Shown here in pieces: positions 17,876-27,080 of a DNA stretch of 64,000 bases (position 1 is the stretch's first letter; each line of letters opens with the position of its first letter). The notes beneath the pieces were generated by a model, which worked only from the letters and a program-made list of their open reading frames with translations, did no database searches and was not told where the DNA came from. Origin of the DNA: Owenweeksia sp. (GTDB taxonomy: Bacteria > Bacteroidota > Bacteroidia > Flavobacteriales > Schleiferiaceae). The stretch lies in the NCBI GenBank assembly GCA_002695025.1, contig NZNV01000008.1, forward strand, positions 62,001 through 126,000, written 5' to 3'. A program made the position numbers and the translations under genes.

Positions 17876-20194
17876 ATGCCAAAGAACTTAGTAATTGTAG
17901 AGTCCCCTGCCAAGGCCAAGACCATTGGTAAATACCTGGGAAAAGACTTCCAGGTAGAGTCTAGTTATGGCCACATTCGGGACCTGATAGCCAAAGATAT
18001 GGGGATTGATATTGAAAATAATTATGCTCCCAAGTATGCGGTTCCCAAGGAGAAGAAGGAAGTGGTAAACAAGCTCAAGAAGCTAACCAAGGATGCTGAA
18101 ACGGTATGGCTGGCATCGGATGAGGACCGGGAAGGAGAGGCTATTGCCTGGCATTTGGCTGAGGCACTGAACCTGAATCCCGGCACCACCAACCGCATTG
18201 TTTTCCACGAGATCACCAAACCGGCCATTGAGAAAGCTATTCAGAACCCGAGGCGCATTGATCAGAACCTGGTAAATGCCCAACAAGCCCGTAGAGTACT
18301 GGATCGGCTGGTGGGATTTGAACTATCACCGATACTTTGGAAAAAAGTGCAGCGGGGCTTATCGGCCGGGCGTGTACAATCTGTAGCAGTACGTTTGATC
18401 GTAGAGCGGGAAAAAGAGATCCGCAACTTTAAAGCAGTTTCCTTTTTCCGTGTGGTGGGTGAATTTACCAACTCCGATGGCAAATCCATTAAAGCTGAGT
18501 TAAGCAGTCGTTTTGAGACAGAAGAAGAGGCTAAAAAATTCCTGGAAGGATGCAAAGGCCACTCTTTCCACATCAACAGCATTGAAACCAAACCGGCCAA
18601 AAAATCACCGGCTGCTCCTTTTACAACTTCCACCCTACAACAGGAAGCTTCCCGGAAGCTGTATTTCTCGGTGGCGCAAACCATGTCTGTAGCACAAAAA
18701 CTTTACGAATCCGGTCATATAACCTATATGCGTACGGATTCGGTAAATCTTTCGGACCTGGCGCTGAATACTGCCCGAAAGGAAATCCATGACCAGTATG
18801 GAGAAAAGTTTGCCCAAACCCGTAAATATTCCACCAAAAGCAAAGGCGCACAAGAAGCTCACGAAGCCATCCGCCCTACCTTCATGGATAAGCATTCAGC
18901 TGGTACTGATGCCAACCAAAAAAAACTATACGACCTTATCTGGAAGCGCACCATTGCTTCACAAATGAGCGATGCAGAACTGGAAAGAACAGTACTCAGG
19001 ATATCCACACCACAGAAAGAGCTGGAATTTGTAGCGCGTGGTGAAGTGATCAAATTTGAAGGTTTCCTGAAGGTATACCTGGAAGGCACGGATGATGATG
19101 AGAGCGATGAACAGGAAGGAATGCTGCCCGCTTCTGAAAAAGGTGAACACCTGAATGCCTCTGAGTTATCCGCTACACAACGTTTCACTAAACATCCTCC
19201 ACGCTTTACGGAAGCCAGTCTGGTGAAGAAACTGGAGGAACTGGGAATTGGCAGACCCTCCACCTATGCCCCTACCATTTCTACCATCCAAAAAAGGAAT
19301 TACGTAGAGAAATCGGACCTGGAAGGTGAAAAACGAAATTATGTTCAGTATGTACTGACCGGTAGCCAAGTGAAGCAAAACAAACTATCTGAAACTACCG
19401 GTGCCGATAAAGGCAAACTTATTCCTACTGATATAGGGATGGTGGTGAACGACTTTTTGGTGGAGCATTTTAAGGACATCATGGATTACCACTTTACCGC
19501 CAACGTAGAAGAACAATTTGATGAGATTGCACGGGGCAGAGAGCAATGGGACCGGATGATCGACTCTTTTTACAAAGATTTTCACCCGCACCTTAAAGAT
19601 GTTGAAGAAAATTCCGACCGCGCCAAAGGAGAAAGACTCTTAGGCCAGGATCCCAAAAGCGGTAAGCCGGTGTATGCCCGTATCGGGCGCTACGGCCCGA
19701 TGATACAGATCGGTGAGGCCGATGACGAAGAAAAGCCGGAGTTTGCCAGCCTGATGAAGGGTCAGCATATCAATGACATTACCCTGGAAGAAGCACTCGA
19801 GCTATTTAAACTTCCCCGTAAGCTGGGCGAATTTGAAGATCTTCCGGTTTCTGCCAACGTGGGACGCTTTGGCCCTTATGTCCGTCATGGCAACAACTTT
19901 GTGTCTATGAAACCCAAAGAGGGTGACGATCCGATGTCCATAACCCTGGAAAGGGCTATCGAACTGATCAAAGCCAAACAGCAGGCCGACAAGGAAAAAT
20001 TCATTGCCCGTTTTGACGAGGAAAAACCGGTTATAGAGGTGTTGAACGGGCGCTACGGACCCTATATCAAATCCGGCAGAAAGAATTATAAGATCCCTAA
20101 AGATAAGGAACCTGCAACCCTCACCCGGGAAGAATGCCTGGAGATCATGAATGCTACACCTGAACCTAAAAAGCGTAAGCCCCGCAAAAAATGA
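17876..20194 (+). CDS. topA: DNA topoisomerase I
   Basis: Type IA topoisomerase that relaxes negative supercoils by single-strand passage. The start at 17876 (MPKNLVIVESPAKAKTIGKY) is the family N-terminus; an in-frame start at 17732 would add 48 unrelated residues upstream of the promoter candidate. The Toprim domain follows (DEDREGEAIAWHLA), and the catalytic Tyr is about residue 284 in ITYMRTDSVNLS. The C-terminus carries three repeats with the pattern GR(Y/F)GP(M/Y) (ARIGRYGPMIQ, ANVGRFGPYVRHG, VLNGRYGPYIKSG) and no Cys4 zinc fingers, unlike E. coli TopA. The stop overlaps the next start (ATGA). Confidence 0.97.
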   Translation: MPKNLVIVESPAKAKTIGKYLGKDFQVESSYGHIRDLIAKDMGIDIENNYAPKYAVPKEKKEVVNKLKKLTKDAETVWLASDEDREGEAIAWHLAEALNLNPGTTNRIVFHEITKPAIEKAIQNPRRIDQNLVNAQQARRVLDRLVGFELSPILWKKVQRGLSAGRVQSVAVRLIVEREKEIRNFKAVSFFRVVGEFTNSDGKSIKAELSSRFETEEEAKKFLEGCKGHSFHINSIETKPAKKSPAAPFTTSTLQQEASRKLYFSVAQTMSVAQKLYESGHITYMRTDSVNLSDLALNTARKEIHDQYGEKFAQTRKYSTKSKGAQEAHEAIRPTFMDKHSAGTDANQKKLYDLIWKRTIASQMSDAELERTVLRISTPQKELEFVARGEVIKFEGFLKVYLEGTDDDESDEQEGMLPASEKGEHLNASELSATQRFTKHPPRFTEASLVKKLEELGIGRPSTYAPTISTIQKRNYVEKSDLEGEKRNYVQYVLTGSQVKQNKLSETTGADKGKLIPTDIGMVVNDFLVEHFKDIMDYHFTANVEEQFDEIARGREQWDRMIDSFYKDFHPHLKDVEENSDRAKGERLLGQDPKSGKPVYARIGRYGPMIQIGEADDEEKPEFASLMKGQHINDITLEEALELFKLPRKLGEFEDLPVSANVGRFGPYVRHGNNFVSMKPKEGDDPMSITLERAIELIKAKQQADKEKFIARFDEEKPVIEVLNGRYGPYIKSGRKNYKIPKDKEPATLTREECLEIMNATPEPKKRKPRKK

Positions 20195-21369
20195 ATCTTG
20201 AAGATTTCCTAGCCCCTGTACGCCAGAGTCTTATAGAAGACAACGAACATCTTCACCCCCAGGCCCTGGTCCATCACATTGCGAAACACACGGAAATCGA
20301 AGGCATACCGGACCTTGAGCATTGCAAGATCGCCATTATCGGAGTTATGGAAGACCGGGGCACCAACAACAACCGGGGAGCTGCCCAGGCACCTGATTCC
20401 GTGCGCAGTTACCTGTACACTCTTTTTAAAGGCAAGTGGCAAAGCCCTATATGTGATCTTGGAAATATTTACAGTGGTGAAAGCCTGAGGGATTCCTATA
20501 TAGCGGTGAAAGAAGTGATCCACCATCTCCTGAAAAAAGGGATAACCCCGATTATTATAGGAGGAGGGCAGGATCTTACCTATGCCAATTACCGGGCTTA
20601 CGATGGCATGGAGCAAACCGTAAACCTGGTATCCATAGATTCACGTTTTGACCTGGGCCGCCATGATGCAAAGACCGGGGCGGATAATTTCCTTAGCTTC
20701 ATTGTTTTGGAAAAGCCTTATATTCTTTATAATTACAGCAACATTGGCTACCAGACCTACTTTGTCAACCAGGACGAGATAGACCTCATGGAGCGCATGT
20801 ATTTTGACGTGCACCGCCTGGGTATTTTCCGTAACAACATCCGCGAAGCCGAGCCTATTCTCCGTGATGCGGACATTGTGAGCTTTGACCTATCTGCCCT
20901 ACGGCAGGCGGATGCCCCTGGAAACCTGAACCATTCCCCCAACGGCTTCAGTGGTGAGGAAGCCTGCGCCCTGAGCCGCTACGCTGGTATCAGTGACAAG
21001 GTATCCTCCTTCGGTATTTACGAGCTCAACCCTGAATTTGATAACCAGGGTCGCACAGCACATCTGGTTTCACAAATGCTCTGGTACTTTATTGAAGGCT
21101 TTAATAATCGGAAGGGCGACTACCCCTACGCCTCCAAAAAAGAATATGATCGTTTTACGGTACTGATCAATGAAGGGGAACACGAACTGATCTTTTACCG
21201 TAGCAATTTGAGCGAGCGTTGGTGGATAGAAGTACCGGTAAAAGCTGGAAATACCAGTATGGATAGTGAGCGGCACCACCTTATTCCTTGTTCGTATGAG
21301 GATTATCAAAGGGCTTGCGAAAATGATATTCCTTTACGGTGGTGGCTGGCTTTGAAAAAGTCTGTATAA
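20191..21369 (+). CDS. Arginase-fold (ureohydrolase family) protein with altered metal site
   Basis: A 392-residue protein of the arginase/agmatinase/formimidoylglutamase superfamily. All three metal motifs can be located but are changed: GGGQD replaces GG(D)H(S), so the His is Gln; DSRFD replaces DAHxD, so the His is Arg; and SFDLSALRQAD replaces SxDxDxxD, so the second Asp is Ser. Three of six Mn ligands are therefore lost and normal hydrolase activity is unlikely. The fold is otherwise retained. It is translationally coupled to topA (4-nt overlap) and lies just upstream of the T9SS operon. Databases often call such proteins formimidoylglutamase; a non-catalytic role is my inference. Confidence 0.8.
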   Translation: MNLEDFLAPVRQSLIEDNEHLHPQALVHHIAKHTEIEGIPDLEHCKIAIIGVMEDRGTNNNRGAAQAPDSVRSYLYTLFKGKWQSPICDLGNIYSGESLRDSYIAVKEVIHHLLKKGITPIIIGGGQDLTYANYRAYDGMEQTVNLVSIDSRFDLGRHDAKTGADNFLSFIVLEKPYILYNYSNIGYQTYFVNQDEIDLMERMYFDVHRLGIFRNNIREAEPILRDADIVSFDLSALRQADAPGNLNHSPNGFSGEEACALSRYAGISDKVSSFGIYELNPEFDNQGRTAHLVSQMLWYFIEGFNNRKGDYPYASKKEYDRFTVLINEGEHELIFYRSNLSERWWIEVPVKAGNTSMDSERHHLIPCSYEDYQRACENDIPLRWWLALKKSV

Positions 21370-21456
21370 ACCTCTGCGTAACAAAAAATGAGGGATTAAT
21401 GCCCCTTAATTTTCGTTAAAATTAACCGAGCATTAACATTTTGTTGTTCAAAATTT

Positions 21457-21464
21457 TATCTTTG
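21457..21464 (+). promoter_or_regulatory. -7 box upstream of porP/gldKLMN
   Basis: An exact TAtcTTTG, 53 nt before the porP/sprF ATG, in an AT-rich gap (21370-21517). The best TTTG upstream (21440-21443) is only 13 nt away, shorter than the usual 19-21, so the -33 box is uncertain. Confidence 0.38.
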
Positions 21465-21517
21465 GAGATTTCAAAGGTTATAGTAGTAACATAAAACAAC
21501 CCTACAACCCTGCGTTT

Positions 21518-22459
21518 ATGAGAAAAATCTACGCACTACTTTTCTTGGTGGCATTGCCTTTCCTGAGTAAGGCACAGCAAAATGTGCAGTTTACCCAATA
21601 CATGTTCAACAAGATTTATTACAACCCGGCTGTGGCAGGGACAGGGGGTGCTATATGTATCAACGCCCTTCACAGGAGCCAATGGGTAGGCTTTGAAGGA
21701 GCTCCAACTACCCAAAACATAAATGGTAATATCCCGGTAAGGTCGGTTCACGGTGGTTTTTCTGTGAATATTGTAAATGACCAGATCGGTTTTTTTCAAA
21801 ATATTGAAGCTGGCCTGGGCTATGCGTATCAACTGGAATTAGCGCGGGGAACCCTGGGCTTTGGAGTGGGTTTACGTTTCATTAACAACTCTGTAAATGG
21901 AGCGGAATGGCGCCCGGCCGACCAAACTCTTGCAGGACTGGGAATACCTTCATCTGATGCTTCCGGCCTGGCAATTGACCCTTCTTTTGGAGTTTATTAT
22001 TCCAGCGAAAATATATGGGGAGGTATCTCCACTATAAACCTGATTGAATCTACATCTGCCTTGAACGGGCAGAATGGTAATATCGGATACCGCAACGCAA
22101 GGCACTATTATGTAATGGGTGGTTACAACTGGCAGATCCCCGCCAGCAACTGGATGCTCATGCCCAGCACCCTGATAAAAACCGATGCCCGCAGCTCTCC
22201 TTCGTTTGACGTGAATGTGATGGCCATGTACAATAACAAGTTTTGGGGAGGCGTTACATACAGGCTACAGGACGCTGTAGGGGTGAATATTGGATATCAG
22301 ATATTACCCTCATTAAAAGCAGGTTACTCTTATGATGTAGCAACGGGGGATCTTTCTTCTCAGGGCGGAGGGAGCCATGAGATCATGTTAAAATATTGTT
22401 TTAGAATAGAAATTCCCCCAAGGGAAAAAGGAAGTTATAGAAATCCAAGATTTTTGTAA
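21518..22459 (+). CDS. Type IX secretion outer-membrane protein PorP/SprF family
   Basis: A 313-residue outer-membrane beta-barrel with a signal peptide (ALPFLSKAQ). The mature N-terminus QNVQFTQYMFNKIYYNPAVA is the diagnostic start of the PorP/SprF family, whose members help anchor or secrete T9SS substrates such as SprB-type adhesins. It is the first gene of a cluster with gldK, gldL, gldM and gldN, 57 nt upstream of gldK. PorP and SprF paralogs cannot be separated by eye; the position next to gldK argues for the core PorP-type copy. Confidence 0.92.
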   Translation: MRKIYALLFLVALPFLSKAQQNVQFTQYMFNKIYYNPAVAGTGGAICINALHRSQWVGFEGAPTTQNINGNIPVRSVHGGFSVNIVNDQIGFFQNIEAGLGYAYQLELARGTLGFGVGLRFINNSVNGAEWRPADQTLAGLGIPSSDASGLAIDPSFGVYYSSENIWGGISTINLIESTSALNGQNGNIGYRNARHYYVMGGYNWQIPASNWMLMPSTLIKTDARSSPSFDVNVMAMYNNKFWGGVTYRLQDAVGVNIGYQILPSLKAGYSYDVATGDLSSQGGGSHEIMLKYCFRIEIPPREKGSYRNPRFL

Positions 22460-22516
22460 TATAGCGCTCTTCGATAAATGGCGTTATATTCCTTCGAAGA
22501 ATTAACAAGGTAGGAT

Positions 22517-23935
22517 ATGAAAAAACTGATTATCATCACAATAGGCATAGGAATGCTGGCAGCATGCAACAGCAATCCTCATGGCGAATTGGTTGGCGTT
22601 CAGGACAGACCGGAGTTCTATCCATCTGAACCTTATGGTATGGTATACATTCCTCAGGGTTCGTATAACATGGGTAATGCTGATCAGGATGTACCTTATT
22701 CCATGGTTTCTCCAACCAAGACGGTTTCCGTACCGGCTTTCTGGATGGACCAAACGGAGATTACCAATAATGAGTACCGCCAGTTTGTATATTGGGTGCG
22801 GGATTCTATTTTGAGGTATCGCCTCGGAGAAGACGGACTGGTTGAAGGCTACGAGTTTGATGATGCCGCTAATAAGGAAGATCCCACATTCTTTGAAGAA
22901 TATGTGGCGCTGAACTATCCTGACTCCATGCAGCGGAGGTTGAATTGGGAACCCTATCTGGAATGGGAAAATGATCGCTATCCTAGCATAGAGTACACCG
23001 AGATTATCCAAAGCATGTACCTTCCCCCCGAAGAAATGTTCATGGGCCGCAGAATGATTGATGCGCGCCAGTTGAATTACGCTTATTTCTTTATCAACAA
23101 GCAAAAGGCAGCTAAGAAAAATAACCGTGTAATTTTCGATTACAAGGATGAAGACCAGGATGGTCAGTATTTCTCCTATCGTGATTATATCAAGGAAACC
23201 AAGGAGATATCCGATCGTAGTTCCTTCTTTGAAGGAGGCGTGATTAACATCTATCCTGATACACTATCCTGGATACATGACTTTACGTACAGCTACAATG
23301 ATCCTATGCATGACAAATACTTCTGGCACCCCTCTTATGATGATTATCCTGTGGTAGGTGTAAACTGGAGACAAGCCCGTGCATTCTGTAACTGGAGAAC
23401 CAAATTCCGCAATGATTACCTCCAGGATGAAGGAGAACCCATCGAACAGGAGTTTCGTTTGCCAACTGAAGCCGAATGGGAATATGCTGCCCGTGGCGGA
23501 CAGGATCTGATGACTTATCCCTGGGGTGGACCTTATGCTATGAACAGTTCAGGATGTTACCTGGGTAACTTCAAACCGTTACGTGGTAATGTCACTGCAG
23601 ATGGTGGTTTCTACCCCGTTAAAGTAACCGCCTATAGCCCCAATGACTTCAACCTGTATAACATGGCAGGTAACGTTTCAGAATGGACCAATACCGCATT
23701 TGAGGCTGCTTCTTACTACTACGTAAGCGATATCAGTCCTAACTTTGAATACAATGCTTACGAAAGCGATGACGAAACCCTGAAACGTAAAGTGATCCGT
23801 GGAGGTAGCTGGAAGGATGTAGCCTACTTCATGCAGGTTAGCACACGCGATTATGAGTATCAGGATACTGCTAAGTGCTATATCGGATTCCGCACCGTAC
23901 AAAGCTTTATGGGTCGTGATATTAAAGACTTCTGA
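22517..23935 (+). CDS. gldK: Gliding motility / T9SS lipoprotein GldK
   Basis: Outer-membrane lipoprotein (lipobox GMLAAC, Cys17) of 472 residues that forms the periplasmic ring of the type IX secretion system with GldN. It has the formylglycine-generating-enzyme-like fold: GMVYIPQGSYNMGN, WMDQTEITNNEYRQFV, PVVGVNWRQARAFCNW, RLPTEAEWEYAARGG, NMAGNVSEW and VIRGGSW. In GldK/PorK this fold is structural, not an oxidase. The gene order gldK-gldL-gldM-gldN is intact. Confidence 0.96.
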   Translation: MKKLIIITIGIGMLAACNSNPHGELVGVQDRPEFYPSEPYGMVYIPQGSYNMGNADQDVPYSMVSPTKTVSVPAFWMDQTEITNNEYRQFVYWVRDSILRYRLGEDGLVEGYEFDDAANKEDPTFFEEYVALNYPDSMQRRLNWEPYLEWENDRYPSIEYTEIIQSMYLPPEEMFMGRRMIDARQLNYAYFFINKQKAAKKNNRVIFDYKDEDQDGQYFSYRDYIKETKEISDRSSFFEGGVINIYPDTLSWIHDFTYSYNDPMHDKYFWHPSYDDYPVVGVNWRQARAFCNWRTKFRNDYLQDEGEPIEQEFRLPTEAEWEYAARGGQDLMTYPWGGPYAMNSSGCYLGNFKPLRGNVTADGGFYPVKVTAYSPNDFNLYNMAGNVSEWTNTAFEAASYYYVSDISPNFEYNAYESDDETLKRKVIRGGSWKDVAYFMQVSTRDYEYQDTAKCYIGFRTVQSFMGRDIKDF

Positions 23936-23986
23936 TTCCAAACCCCGAACAACAAAAAATCCTATTTAATTTAAATTTCGAATACA

Positions 23987-24652
23987 ATGGCGTTAATTGA
24001 TGTAAACAGCAAAAGATTTAAGAACTTCATGTCCAAGCTCTATGGTATCGGAGCATCAGTAGTAATTCTTGGAGCGATGTTCAAGATCCTTCACTACCCC
24101 GGAGCCGACTTTATGCTCGTATTGGGTCTTACCACTGAAGCCGTGATCTTCTTCTTCTCTGCTTTTGAAAAACCACATGAGGAGTATGACTGGACTTTGG
24201 TGTATCCTGAATTGGCCGGGATGGAAGATCCAGATGAAGAAATAAGAGGTGAAAACCGCCTTTCTCCTACACAGGAGCTGGACAAAATGTTGGAAGATGC
24301 TAAAATTGACGGTGAACTGATTGAAAGTCTTGGTTCAGGTTTACGCAGGTTCGGTGACGCAGCCAGCAAGCTTAGCGTTACAGTTGATGCGGCCGCTGCC
24401 ACCCAGGAATATGGTGAGCAGTTAAGCCTCGCCTCCAAAAACATGGAATCACTGAACGCTCTCTATGCCGTTCAACTGGAAAGTTCAGCTAACCACATGG
24501 AAGCTCAGAACTCCCTGATCGAGAAACTGAACTCTTCTATCAATGATTCAGAGCGTCTTGCCGATGAGGTTTCTTCTTTGGCCAACAATATGAGCCAGCT
24601 GAACTCCGTATATGGTGGTATGCTTTCCGCAATGAATATCAATAAGAATTAA
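23987..24652 (+). CDS. gldL: Gliding motility / T9SS motor protein GldL
   Basis: Inner-membrane protein of 221 residues with two N-terminal transmembrane helices (about 18-35 and 43-60) and a long cytoplasmic coiled-coil. GldL pentamers surround a GldM dimer and form the proton-driven rotary motor that powers T9SS and gliding. The second helix contains the membrane-buried Glu (GLTTEAVIFFFSAFEKP) considered important for proton use. It lies 51 nt after gldK and 43 nt before gldM. Confidence 0.96.
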   Translation: MALIDVNSKRFKNFMSKLYGIGASVVILGAMFKILHYPGADFMLVLGLTTEAVIFFFSAFEKPHEEYDWTLVYPELAGMEDPDEEIRGENRLSPTQELDKMLEDAKIDGELIESLGSGLRRFGDAASKLSVTVDAAAATQEYGEQLSLASKNMESLNALYAVQLESSANHMEAQNSLIEKLNSSINDSERLADEVSSLANNMSQLNSVYGGMLSAMNINKN

Positions 24653-24695
24653 TCAGAAGAGCTTAATTTCTAAATCAACAAAAGACTGACCTGAT

Positions 24696-26228
24696 ATGGC
24701 GAGTGGAAAACAGACACCGAGACAGAAAATGATCAATATGATGTACCTCGTATTGACCGCACTTCTGGCTCTGAACATTTCAAAGGATATCCTGGAAGCA
24801 CTGACCAAGCTTAACGCCAGCCTGGATCAAACCGTTCAAACGGTGGATAAAAAGAATGCTTCTATTTACACCAAATTTGAGTCTGCCTATGCGCAAGACC
24901 CGCAAAAGACCAAGAAATGGAGAGATATGGCCCTTACGGTTCAAAAGGAATCCAATGATCTGTATGCTTACATTGCTCAACTGAAGGAAGACCTGGTGCA
25001 GGTTAGCGGAGGTTATGAAGAAGGAAGTACTACTGTACCTAAGAGTTTGGATGCCCGTGAAAAGCCAGCCAACTACCTTCTCAATGAGAAGCATGCTACG
25101 GAACTTAAAAATCAAATTGATGAGTACCGCAATACGTTGAAGCAATATGCTCTTAGTCCTCAAACACAAAATAATATTGAGACTACTTTCAGCACCGCTG
25201 ATCAGCCCATAGGTGAAGATAATGTGATGACCAGCTGGGAAAAGGCAAATTTTGAGCACTTTCCCCTTGCGGCCATTCTCCCCTTCCTCACAGATTACCA
25301 GGCAAAGGTTCGTAATTCTGAGTCTGACGTGATCAGCGAACTTCAAACAAAGATCGGTGAGTCCGACCTTAAATTTACCGATGTACGCGTAATTGTGGAT
25401 TCCAAATCCAACTATGTTACACAGGGAGATGAGTACAAGGCGGAAGTTTTTCTTGCTGCGTACGATGCTACACAAGAACCAGTTATTCTGGTAAATGGAC
25501 AGGCCTTACCTTCTGAGCAGATCAGCGAGGGAAAAGGACTGGTTAAATTCAAGGCAGATGGTGTAGGTGAGAAAAAGTGGGGTGGTAAAATCAAGATTAC
25601 CCAAATCGGTAAAGGTGAAGTGGAATATGATATTCCCGAACAAACGTATACCGTTGCTCCTCCTACGGCCGTAATATCCCCTACTGCCATGAACGTTCTT
25701 TACAAAGGGGTGGATAACCCTCTTGAAATTGGTGTTCCCGGAGTAGACCCTTCTAAAGTAAGGGTTAGTGGCGTTCCCCTTTCCGGATCCAATGGCAATT
25801 ATATTGCTGACGTTTCTAGTGTTAGCAGTCGTGAAATTAATATCCAGGTATCCGTTCAGGAAGAGGATGGTTCCGTAAGATCAGTAGGTACTAAGAAGTT
25901 CCGTGTTAAAGGTCTTCCTCCTGCTACAGGAAGTATTTTCGGAAAAACCGAGGGAATAATGTCCAAAAGCTTATTACAGAGAGCTACGGTTGAAGCCAAA
26001 TATGAAGATTTTCCTTTTGACCTCAACCTTACCGTAACCTCTTTTGAAATTGCTGTACCAGGATTTCCCCCGGAACAGGTTCGAGGTAATTCAATGTCCT
26101 CTGACGTTAAAACACGTATTGAAAAGCTACGTCCGGGACAAACAGTTTCTATCCGGAATATTAAGGCGGTAGGCCCCAAGGGCGTCCGTGTAAACCAGGT
26201 TGGTAATATTTCGATAGACGTAAACTAA
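24696..26228 (+). CDS. gldM: Gliding motility / T9SS motor protein GldM
   Basis: A 510-residue protein with one N-terminal transmembrane helix (MYLVLTALLALNISKDI, about 16-32) and a long periplasmic part made of consecutive domains that reaches the GldKN ring. The cytoplasmic start MASGKQTPRQKMINMMYLV is the family signature. Together with GldL it forms the energy-transducing motor. Twelve nt separate it from gldN. Confidence 0.96.
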   Translation: MASGKQTPRQKMINMMYLVLTALLALNISKDILEALTKLNASLDQTVQTVDKKNASIYTKFESAYAQDPQKTKKWRDMALTVQKESNDLYAYIAQLKEDLVQVSGGYEEGSTTVPKSLDAREKPANYLLNEKHATELKNQIDEYRNTLKQYALSPQTQNNIETTFSTADQPIGEDNVMTSWEKANFEHFPLAAILPFLTDYQAKVRNSESDVISELQTKIGESDLKFTDVRVIVDSKSNYVTQGDEYKAEVFLAAYDATQEPVILVNGQALPSEQISEGKGLVKFKADGVGEKKWGGKIKITQIGKGEVEYDIPEQTYTVAPPTAVISPTAMNVLYKGVDNPLEIGVPGVDPSKVRVSGVPLSGSNGNYIADVSSVSSREINIQVSVQEEDGSVRSVGTKKFRVKGLPPATGSIFGKTEGIMSKSLLQRATVEAKYEDFPFDLNLTVTSFEIAVPGFPPEQVRGNSMSSDVKTRIEKLRPGQTVSIRNIKAVGPKGVRVNQVGNISIDVN

Positions 26229-26240
26229 AAGCATAAGTCT

Positions 26241-27080
26241 ATGAGAAGGATTGTTTTAGGTTTAATGACGATTGGTTTGATGGCGGTAGCCGCTCATTCG
26301 GCTCAGGCACAGATCCTCACTCCACAGGACGATGGGATCATACCTGATCCACCCAAGCACTACCATCATAACCAGGTATTCCCCTACCCCCATTTGCGGG
26401 AAGCGGATATGATGTGGAGCACCCGTCACTGGGAGCGTATTGACCTTAGAGAAAAGATAAATCATCATCTCTACTATCCTATTGTTCCTATACCTGATCG
26501 CAAAAGTCTGTATGATGTACTCGTTGATGGTATCTTAAATGAAGGGACTATCATAGAAGTGTTTGCTGATGATCGTTTTGAAATTCCCCTTACACCTGAA
26601 CAGGTAGAAAACTATGCTGCCAAAAGAGATACTCTTTGGGATCCTGAAGATGCCTCACGCTGGCTGGCTGTAGATACCATCAGGGTAACCGCCAAAGACG
26701 TTCTGGCTTATGAAATTAAGTCTGACTGGTTCTTTGACAAGCAAAGGGGAGAAATGAAAAACCGTATTATCGGGATTTCACCTGTGGTAAAGAATCCGAA
26801 AACCGGTGATATTTACAATCTATTCTGGGTTTGGTTCCCTGATGCACGTTATGCCCTGGCTACGCATGTGGCCTTTAATCCGCAAAACAATGCAGCAAGG
26901 TTAACCTACGACCAGGTTTTTCATATTCGTTTCTTCAACTCCACCATCATCAAACAAGACAACGTTTATGACCGGTCTATTGCCGACTATAAGCGTAACT
27001 CACCGATGGATCAATTGCTGGAGGCCCAGGAAATTCGTGAAAACCTGCGGAATTTTGAACATGACCTTTGGGAATATTGA
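26241..27080 (+). CDS. gldN: Gliding motility / T9SS ring protein GldN
   Basis: Periplasmic protein of 279 residues with a signal peptide (AAHSAQA). It pairs with GldK in the periplasmic ring. The conserved WSTRHWERIDLREKINHHLY, WFFDKQRGEMKNRIIGI, FWVWFPDARY and SPMDQLLEAQEIRENLRNFE segments fit the GldN/PorN family. Last gene of the operon, followed by a terminator. Confidence 0.96.
   Translation: MRRIVLGLMTIGLMAVAAHSAQAQILTPQDDGIIPDPPKHYHHNQVFPYPHLREADMMWSTRHWERIDLREKINHHLYYPIVPIPDRKSLYDVLVDGILNEGTIIEVFADDRFEIPLTPEQVENYAAKRDTLWDPEDASRWLAVDTIRVTAKDVLAYEIKSDWFFDKQRGEMKNRIIGISPVVKNPKTGDIYNLFWVWFPDARYALATHVAFNPQNNAARLTYDQVFHIRFFNSTIIKQDNVYDRSIADYKRNSPMDQLLEAQEIRENLRNFEHDLWEY

Follow-up and report, generated by a model that had tools for sequence, protein, structure and literature searches.

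A 64,000-nucleotide stretch of the Owenweeksia sp. genome (contig NZNV01000008.1, positions 62,001 to 126,000; here called the window) carries on its plus strand a 392-amino-acid (aa) open reading frame at 20191..21369, directly after topA and before porP-gldKLMN, genes of the type IX secretion system (T9SS). We found that its product belongs to the ureohydrolase (arginase) superfamily and that, judging from the sequences, the two-metal hydrolase function is very probably dead. The reading that we favor, with moderate confidence, is that the gene encodes an old, conserved pseudo-ureohydrolase that binds a ligand or a partner; a binding or regulatory role appears fairly probable.

Pfam analysis matched residues 46 to 299 of the window protein to the Arginase family (E 3.3e-25; 89.6 bits against a cut-off of 22), and an AlphaFold2 model of the whole protein had a mean pLDDT of 90.5 and a pTM of 0.92. 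The closest structures recovered with this model by Foldseek were formiminoglutamases, the best being 4mxr (TMt 0.82). The Pfam match and this score place the protein in the superfamily by fold and descent, with the arginase/formimidoylglutamase-fold domain at approximately residues 46 to 299 (20326..21087). In arginase, the first manganese (MnA) is held by H101, D124, D128, and D232 and the second (MnB) by H126, D124, D232, and D234. Alignment showed that the corresponding motifs of the window protein are GGGQD (residues 124 to 128; 20560..20574), in which the first ligand is changed from His to Gln127; DSRFD (residues 150 to 154; 20638..20652), in which His is changed to Arg152 and Asp150 and Asp154 are retained; and SFDLS (residues 231 to 235; 20881..20895), in which Asp is changed to Ser235 and Asp233 is retained. 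Three of the six ligands that bind two metals in the superfamily's enzymes are therefore replaced in an otherwise ureohydrolase-fold protein, as an earlier, sequence-only reading of this DNA had proposed.

In order to determine whether these changes are fixed, as that reading had suggested checking, homologues were collected from 296 genomes of the phylum and 80 named loci, with further stretches added. The alignment comprised 170 proteins: the window gene twice, 136 members scoring at least 220 bits, 10 proteins set aside for poor alignment (L142 to L151, five rows each from the families f2 and f6), and 22 intact homologues, picked by D150, H152, D233, and D235 and 295 to 383 aa long as called. 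Counts are given for 137 proteins, that is, the 136 members plus the window gene; copies of the latter (L001 and L004) are uncounted, and a few of the 137 are truncated by contig ends (L039, L093, and L108). Both MnB ligands (His152 and Asp235) occurred together in 0/137. The MnA set H/Q-D-D-D (positions 127, 150, 154, and 233) was retained in 124/137, 18 of these with His. Asp150 was present in 137/137, Asp233 in 136/137, and Asp154 in 127/137; position 127 was Gln in 115, His in 19, and Asn in 3, and position 152 was Lys or Arg in 80/137. The intact homologues had D154 in 22/22, with His (17) or Asn (5) at position 127. None of the ten set-aside rows had the full ligand set. The ligand changes are thus fixed in the family, and a local chance change is ruled out because the pattern recurs over all 137 proteins. 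Since His152 and Asp235 are never found together and D150, D154, and D233 are mostly kept, the predicted second metal site has been lost and a diluted form of the first persists, family-wide.

Two explanations would retain catalysis. In the first, the protein is a working formimidoylglutamase that has been mis-seen as dead; its best NCBIfam model (HutG) and best PDB relatives are indeed formimidoylglutamases. However, it scored 109.4 bits against the curated HutG equivalog cut-off of 229 and fails HutG membership by that measure, the MnB site is lost throughout the family, and the same genome carries an intact HutG-like gene beside hutI. True HutG identity is disfavored by this score and by this second gene, and a working formimidoylglutamase is exceedingly improbable. 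Compared with formimidoylglutamases of known structure (PDB 3m1r, 1xfk, and 4mxr, its best Foldseek hits), the window family shares the fold but has lost the MnB ligands, mostly has Arg for Glu at residue 56, and bears an extra C-terminal domain. The intact HutG-like gene (L005; GGGH, DPHTD, DLD) lies directly after hutI and before a formiminotransferase-like gene, and it is one of three further Arginase-family genes with intact ligand motifs in this genome, the others being agmatinase-like (L003; GGDH, DAHAD, SFDID) and arginase-like (L002; SGDH, DAHSD, SFDVD); motifs and names were assigned by eye.

In the second, the MnA ligands together with new Arg and Glu residues would form the active site of a one-metal or re-tooled enzyme. 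The retention of H/Q-D-D-D in most members is in keeping with this. However, residue 278, which we take to be the counterpart of the catalytic Glu277 of arginase, is Asn or Gly in 56/137, and the gene persists in f2 and f6, which lose the MnA set. According to PDB titles, structures with two Mn exist for Trypanosoma cruzi formiminoglutamase in its native form and for its N114H variant; we read N114 as the first ligand, where the five intact homologues noted above also have Asn. On this reading, metal can be bound even where the first ligand is not His. On balance, we consider a re-tooled enzyme unlikely.

The family appears old and is under selection. A tree of 59 rows (35 of the 137 members; L142, L143, and L145 of the set-aside ten; and 21 of the 22 intact homologues) separated the 38 family rows from the 21 intact rows by a branch with 100/100 support. 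In this tree, which does not place a root, the split suggests that MnB was probably lost before the family spread. The ratio of nonsynonymous to synonymous rates (dN/dS) was 0.037 to 0.074 in six close pairs. For three further pairs, in which dS was saturated, the corresponding ratio of proportions (pN/pS) was 0.08 (L066-L052), 0.13 (window-L035), and 0.30 (window-L036). The measured pairs are under strong purifying selection, and these dN/dS values, with the wide conservation, rule out a decaying pseudogene for the main family. Loss of catalytic residues is thus fixed in a conserved, selected family, as is characteristic of a pseudoenzyme.

Inspection of 43 representatives (f2 and f6 excluded) revealed residues that distinguish the family from enzymes. 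Residue 56 was Arg in 42/43, compared with Glu in 16/22 intact homologues, and R209, E221, R225, W344, W345, and C367 were found in 43/43, at positions unconserved or gapped in the intact homologues. Invariant polar residues were enriched at the positions comprising the final residue of a strand and the five that follow it (9/48 versus 15/213; odds 3.0; p 0.023); the five following residues alone gave p 0.069, and a pre-strand control gave p 0.55.

The family-specific C-terminal domain (residues 306 to 392; 21106..21366; motif F..S....RWW...PC..DY..A....P.RW) was conserved. F335, W344, W345, C367, Y372, and P381 of its approximately 85 aa were present in 43/43 representatives, and the columns checked were gaps in 21 or 22 of the 22 intact homologues; the motif is looser in f2 and f6. 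Modeled alone, the domain had a pLDDT of 75.3, less sure than the whole protein. No PDB fold match was found for it (best Foldseek E, 2.0), nor any sequence-profile match (best profile E, 0.043). No convincing isolated copy was found in genomes lacking the gene; a match in G449 (E 0.002) runs through stops.

By sequence and by analogy with relatives, a binding protein is the most economical account of these data, given that the old active-site face is polar and invariant, with the charge reversed at residue 56 and Lys or Arg frequent at residue 152. The sequence-only reading had proposed a pseudoenzyme conserved for binding or regulation; the fixed ligand loss, strong selection, and conserved added domain support the pseudoenzyme at the level of sequence, and the binding role is what we infer from them. 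Under this account, the family would have had a single origin from a formimidoylglutamase-like enzyme and would have abandoned the hydrolysis of guanidino or formimidoyl compounds. A remodeled pocket at the old active-site face may hold a small ligand or one metal; alternatively, Lys or Arg at 152 may replace the lost metal. The C-terminal domain would contact a partner, and in many lineages the protein would be co-produced with TopA. The protein itself is probably cytosolic, as no hydrophobic N terminus was seen by eye. A more elaborate version, which we regard as improbable, is a core cytosolic sensor of the Bacteroidia, in which the rebuilt arginase pocket (one acidic site plus new Arg and Glu) would bind a small ligand such as arginine or a compound with a guanidino or formimidoyl group. 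The C-terminal domain would then signal to TopA or, in many lineages, influence how the neighboring T9SS motor genes are expressed or their products assembled.

Three points weigh against a binding pseudo-ureohydrolase. The MnA set is so well kept that it could still serve one-metal catalysis. The test for pocket enrichment is weak (p 0.02 to 0.07). Finally, the MnA remnant is gone too in f2 and f6, which means that the ligand pocket is not universal. The f2 proteins (L143 to L147; 356 to 358 aa) read N-S-I-S-N-D at the six places, five being changed and 235 being Asp; in the tree, L143 and L145 sit on a common branch that is 1.78 changes per column long and nested next to a Flavobacterium row. 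The five f6 copies are 277 to 379 aa long. In L148, L149, and L151 (277 to 335 aa), the arginase part is eroded and the C-terminal domain is recognizable, less so in L151. Two remnants from f93, L199 and L200, were found with the C-terminal domain as the query (E 9e-7 and 1e-5); they have open frames of 316 and 309 aa with an eroded arginase part and a recognizable C-terminal domain. Erosion may be under way in these short f6 and f93 copies.

Other members of the superfamily have taken a similar path. A Trypanosoma brucei arginase-like protein, to which we take PDB entries 4rhi to 4rhq to belong, is said in the title of a 2015 report by Hai et al., which PMC11271267 and PMC8503589 cite, to have evolved the fold without the binuclear manganese cluster. 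It resembles the window family in this respect, but it is eukaryotic, whereas the window family is bacterial, class-wide, and endowed with an added domain; the 4rh* chains matched the window protein weakly (E 0.008 to 0.07). The beta subunit of metformin hydrolase (MetCb, or MefH-beta) is described in two reports as an inactive ureohydrolase-family subunit and protein binder (PMC11271267 and PMC11399263). The first of these has MetCb binding and supporting MetCa and calls the functions of noncanonical arginase proteins without a binuclear metal center, in eukaryotes and prokaryotes, elusive (PMC11271267).

This same-fold precedent raises the idea that the window protein is a noncatalytic subunit that joins an intact paralogue in a mixed complex, and at least two Arginase-family matches, with ligands unread, were found in 37/42 genomes examined. 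However, MetCb/MefH-beta lies adjacent to, and depends on, its active sister, and no such intact sister accompanies the gene in the window. Moreover, the family gene was the sole Arginase-family match in 4/42 genomes (G099, G138, G214, and G261; f4, 99 to 100% complete), in which an active sister is therefore not needed. A mixed complex of this type is very unlikely. Pseudo-ureohydrolases are thus already known, and a class-wide one with a fused new domain is new. No literature on this family was found in a search mostly at the level of titles and abstract beginnings and covering few subscription journals, and no article in the literature searched dealt with arginase, gldL, and gliding together.

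We also asked how the gene is distributed relative to the T9SS. GldM scored above its cut-off in 71 of the 296 phylum genomes, and the gene was matched in 69 of them (all but G190 and G249). A further 91 phylum genomes gave matches of at most 118.6 bits, and the 20 that were read were all intact enzymes. In 336 genomes of the class, which we take to be the Bacteroidia from GTDB taxonomy and from the titles of the named loci, both genes were present in 314, GldM only in 13, the gene only in 3 (G344, G487, and G521), and neither in 6. Matches here were accepted to E 1e-5, and the 317 were counted by score and not by their ligands; four were weak, of which G346, G372, and G374 were backed by the C-terminal domain and G537 was not and is doubtful, and the rest had E 4e-55 or better. 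G487 (L222; 99% complete) has a full copy of the gene and G344 (95% complete; 130 contigs) has the gene, and neither has a GldM, GldL, or SprA match; SprA is present in G521 and G399. G316, G230, G238, G406, and G500 have neither the gene nor GldM, GldL, or SprA. Because 13/327 GldM-bearing genomes lack the gene and G487 and G344 keep it without these three T9SS proteins, the gene, which is near-universal in this class sample, is not tied to the T9SS and does not follow the presence and absence expected of a T9SS component. For a role independent of the T9SS, G487 provides a natural test case.

In the window, topA (17876..20194, plus strand; ATG at 17876 by frame call) ends with a TGA at 20192-20194, giving the ATGA overlap described earlier with the gene start at 20191. 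A spacer (21370..21517) follows the gene, and downstream of it lies porP-gldKLMN (21518..27080, plus strand), perhaps a separate transcription unit, with starts at 21518 (porP), 22517 (gldK), 23987 (gldL), 24696 (gldM), and 26241 (gldN). The presence of these genes agrees with the earlier reading; neighbor names were assigned by eye from the frame list, and GldM and GldL were confirmed by family searches. The same order on the same strand, topA upstream and gldK downstream, was seen in 72/80 named loci, a set that was retrieved with the window protein as the query and is biased toward close relatives. Judging from the order in other Flavobacterium loci, the orthologue between topA and gldK in Flavobacterium johnsoniae UW101, where gldK is Fjoh_1853 (PMC5445135), is perhaps Fjoh_1852. 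Among the other eight, L039, L069, and L093 start too near a contig end for topA, L108 ends 37 bp past the gene, L042 and L095 have topA only, and L098 and L110 have neither (L098 covers only 1 kb upstream). The topA-gene distance was at most 20 nucleotides (nt) in 65/79 loci, with gene starts, and hence gaps, resting on frame calls, and the spacer to the next T9SS gene had a median of 155 nt (80 loci). This difference in spacing suggests cotranscription with topA and not with the T9SS genes.

A dedicated T9SS accessory, such as a protein that partners the GldLM motor in the cytosol or regulates its assembly, would account for this gene order and for the joint occurrence of the gene and GldM in 314/336 class genomes. 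GldM lay within 15 kb on the same strand in 45/66 genomes among the matches listed, from 19 families, and gldK lies approximately 2.4 kb away, in a different arrangement, in three of the five f6 loci, where the copy is shrunken. With miaB distance as the control (32 rows), gene distances correlated best with those of gldK (0.63), followed by topA (0.59), gldN (0.55), gldL (0.51), and gldM (0.29). In G281, an f2 genome in which gldK does not adjoin, the gene diverged 2.07-fold relative to expectation, compared with 0.97 to 1.31 for gldKLMN and 1.01 for topA; the expectation was taken from the window-Flavobacterium distance and concerns one f2 genome. Such divergence is consistent with selection that is relaxed or altered where gldK is not adjacent, and it hints at a local role; in G281, however, the gene also lies 5.6 kb from topA, and the rate therefore does not separate topA from gldK. 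Against a dedicated accessory stand the GldM-bearing genomes without the gene, the retention of the gene in G487 and G344, and the spacing, which ties the gene to topA. With topA distance as the control, moreover, the correlations dropped to 0.37 (gldK), 0.20 (gldN), 0.15 (gldL), 0.07 (gldM), and 0.00 (miaB). We consider a dedicated accessory doubtful and a role confined to the T9SS equally so. The suggestion that the place beside porP-gldKLMN is meaningful is weakly supported by the recurrent order and the 19 families with GldM nearby; topA-tied spacing, the 13 genomes without the gene, its retention in G487 and G344, and its location elsewhere in f4, f5, f9, and f10 make an exclusive role unlikely.

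Neither topA nor gldK was found within approximately 7 kb in the f4 (7), f5 (10), f9 (7), and f10 (2) loci read. Each of the five f2 loci has topA within 6 kb and no gldK; only gldK is present in three of the five f6 loci and in one f7 locus. Since some loci have only one of these neighbors, or none, the topA-gene-T9SS order is probably ancestral, with either end losable. Genomes lacking the gene supplied ten GldM loci (f11, f12, f97, f106, and f115), in which the 3.7 to 10 kb covered upstream never showed topA beside gldK. In the f6 loci L148, L149, and L151, a C25-peptidase gene accompanies gldK, which is separated from the shrunken pseudo-arginase by a gene that looks murF-like by eye; L148 and L149 also have a PorP-like gene, and the arrangement is unlike that of the window.

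The spacer before gldK is near-constant in many Flavobacteriaceae (approximately 153 to 166 nt) and contains a common A/T-rich block, perhaps a promoter or leader (examples: window, 21370-21517; L050, 11159-11319; L063, 11141-11297). The window spacer holds TATCTTTG at 21457-21464, which resembles the consensus of the Bacteroidota -7 element. However, TANNTTTG occurred in 11/80 spacers of other loci against 15% expected, that is, at chance level, and a general Bacteroidota promoter before gldK or porP is unsupported as a rule.

In loci without topA and gldK, the nearest genes differ by family, and no constant neighbor names a pathway. The neighbors were a D-Ala-D-Ala carboxypeptidase S13 gene in f5, thioredoxin-like genes in f4, an OmpA-family protein gene in f6, and, in f9, a gene with Fer2, FAD-binding, and NAD-binding domains, presumably NqrF-like. 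An NAD-dependent epimerase-like gene (cluster c1; 35 to 76% identical) was seen in 12/43 loci read, always divergent (L175 to L181, L110, L131, L134, L135, and L139, from families without the topA-gldK setting). It adjoins the gene in six of the seven f4 loci and in L110, is one frame off in the seventh f4 locus, and is two genes away in four of the ten f5 loci; it was absent from the topA-gldK loci read (L040 and L041). The window's own genome has a relative at C11:182790-183782 (42%; E 2.2e-75), on the same contig approximately 100 kb away.

A formimidoylglutamase-like protein that is, from its residues, very probably unable to catalyze that reaction is thus matched in 317/336 genomes of the class. 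If this is true, metabolic models would be led astray by fold-based annotation, and the class would have a widespread protein that lacks an assigned function. The family also offers a graded view of pseudo-ureohydrolase evolution, from retention of the MnA set, through change at five of six places, to shrinkage of the arginase part, in a case that includes a C-terminal domain without a PDB fold match. The gene appears to encode an old, conserved, probably nonenzymatic protein of the class and not a local oddity of the neighboring secretion genes.

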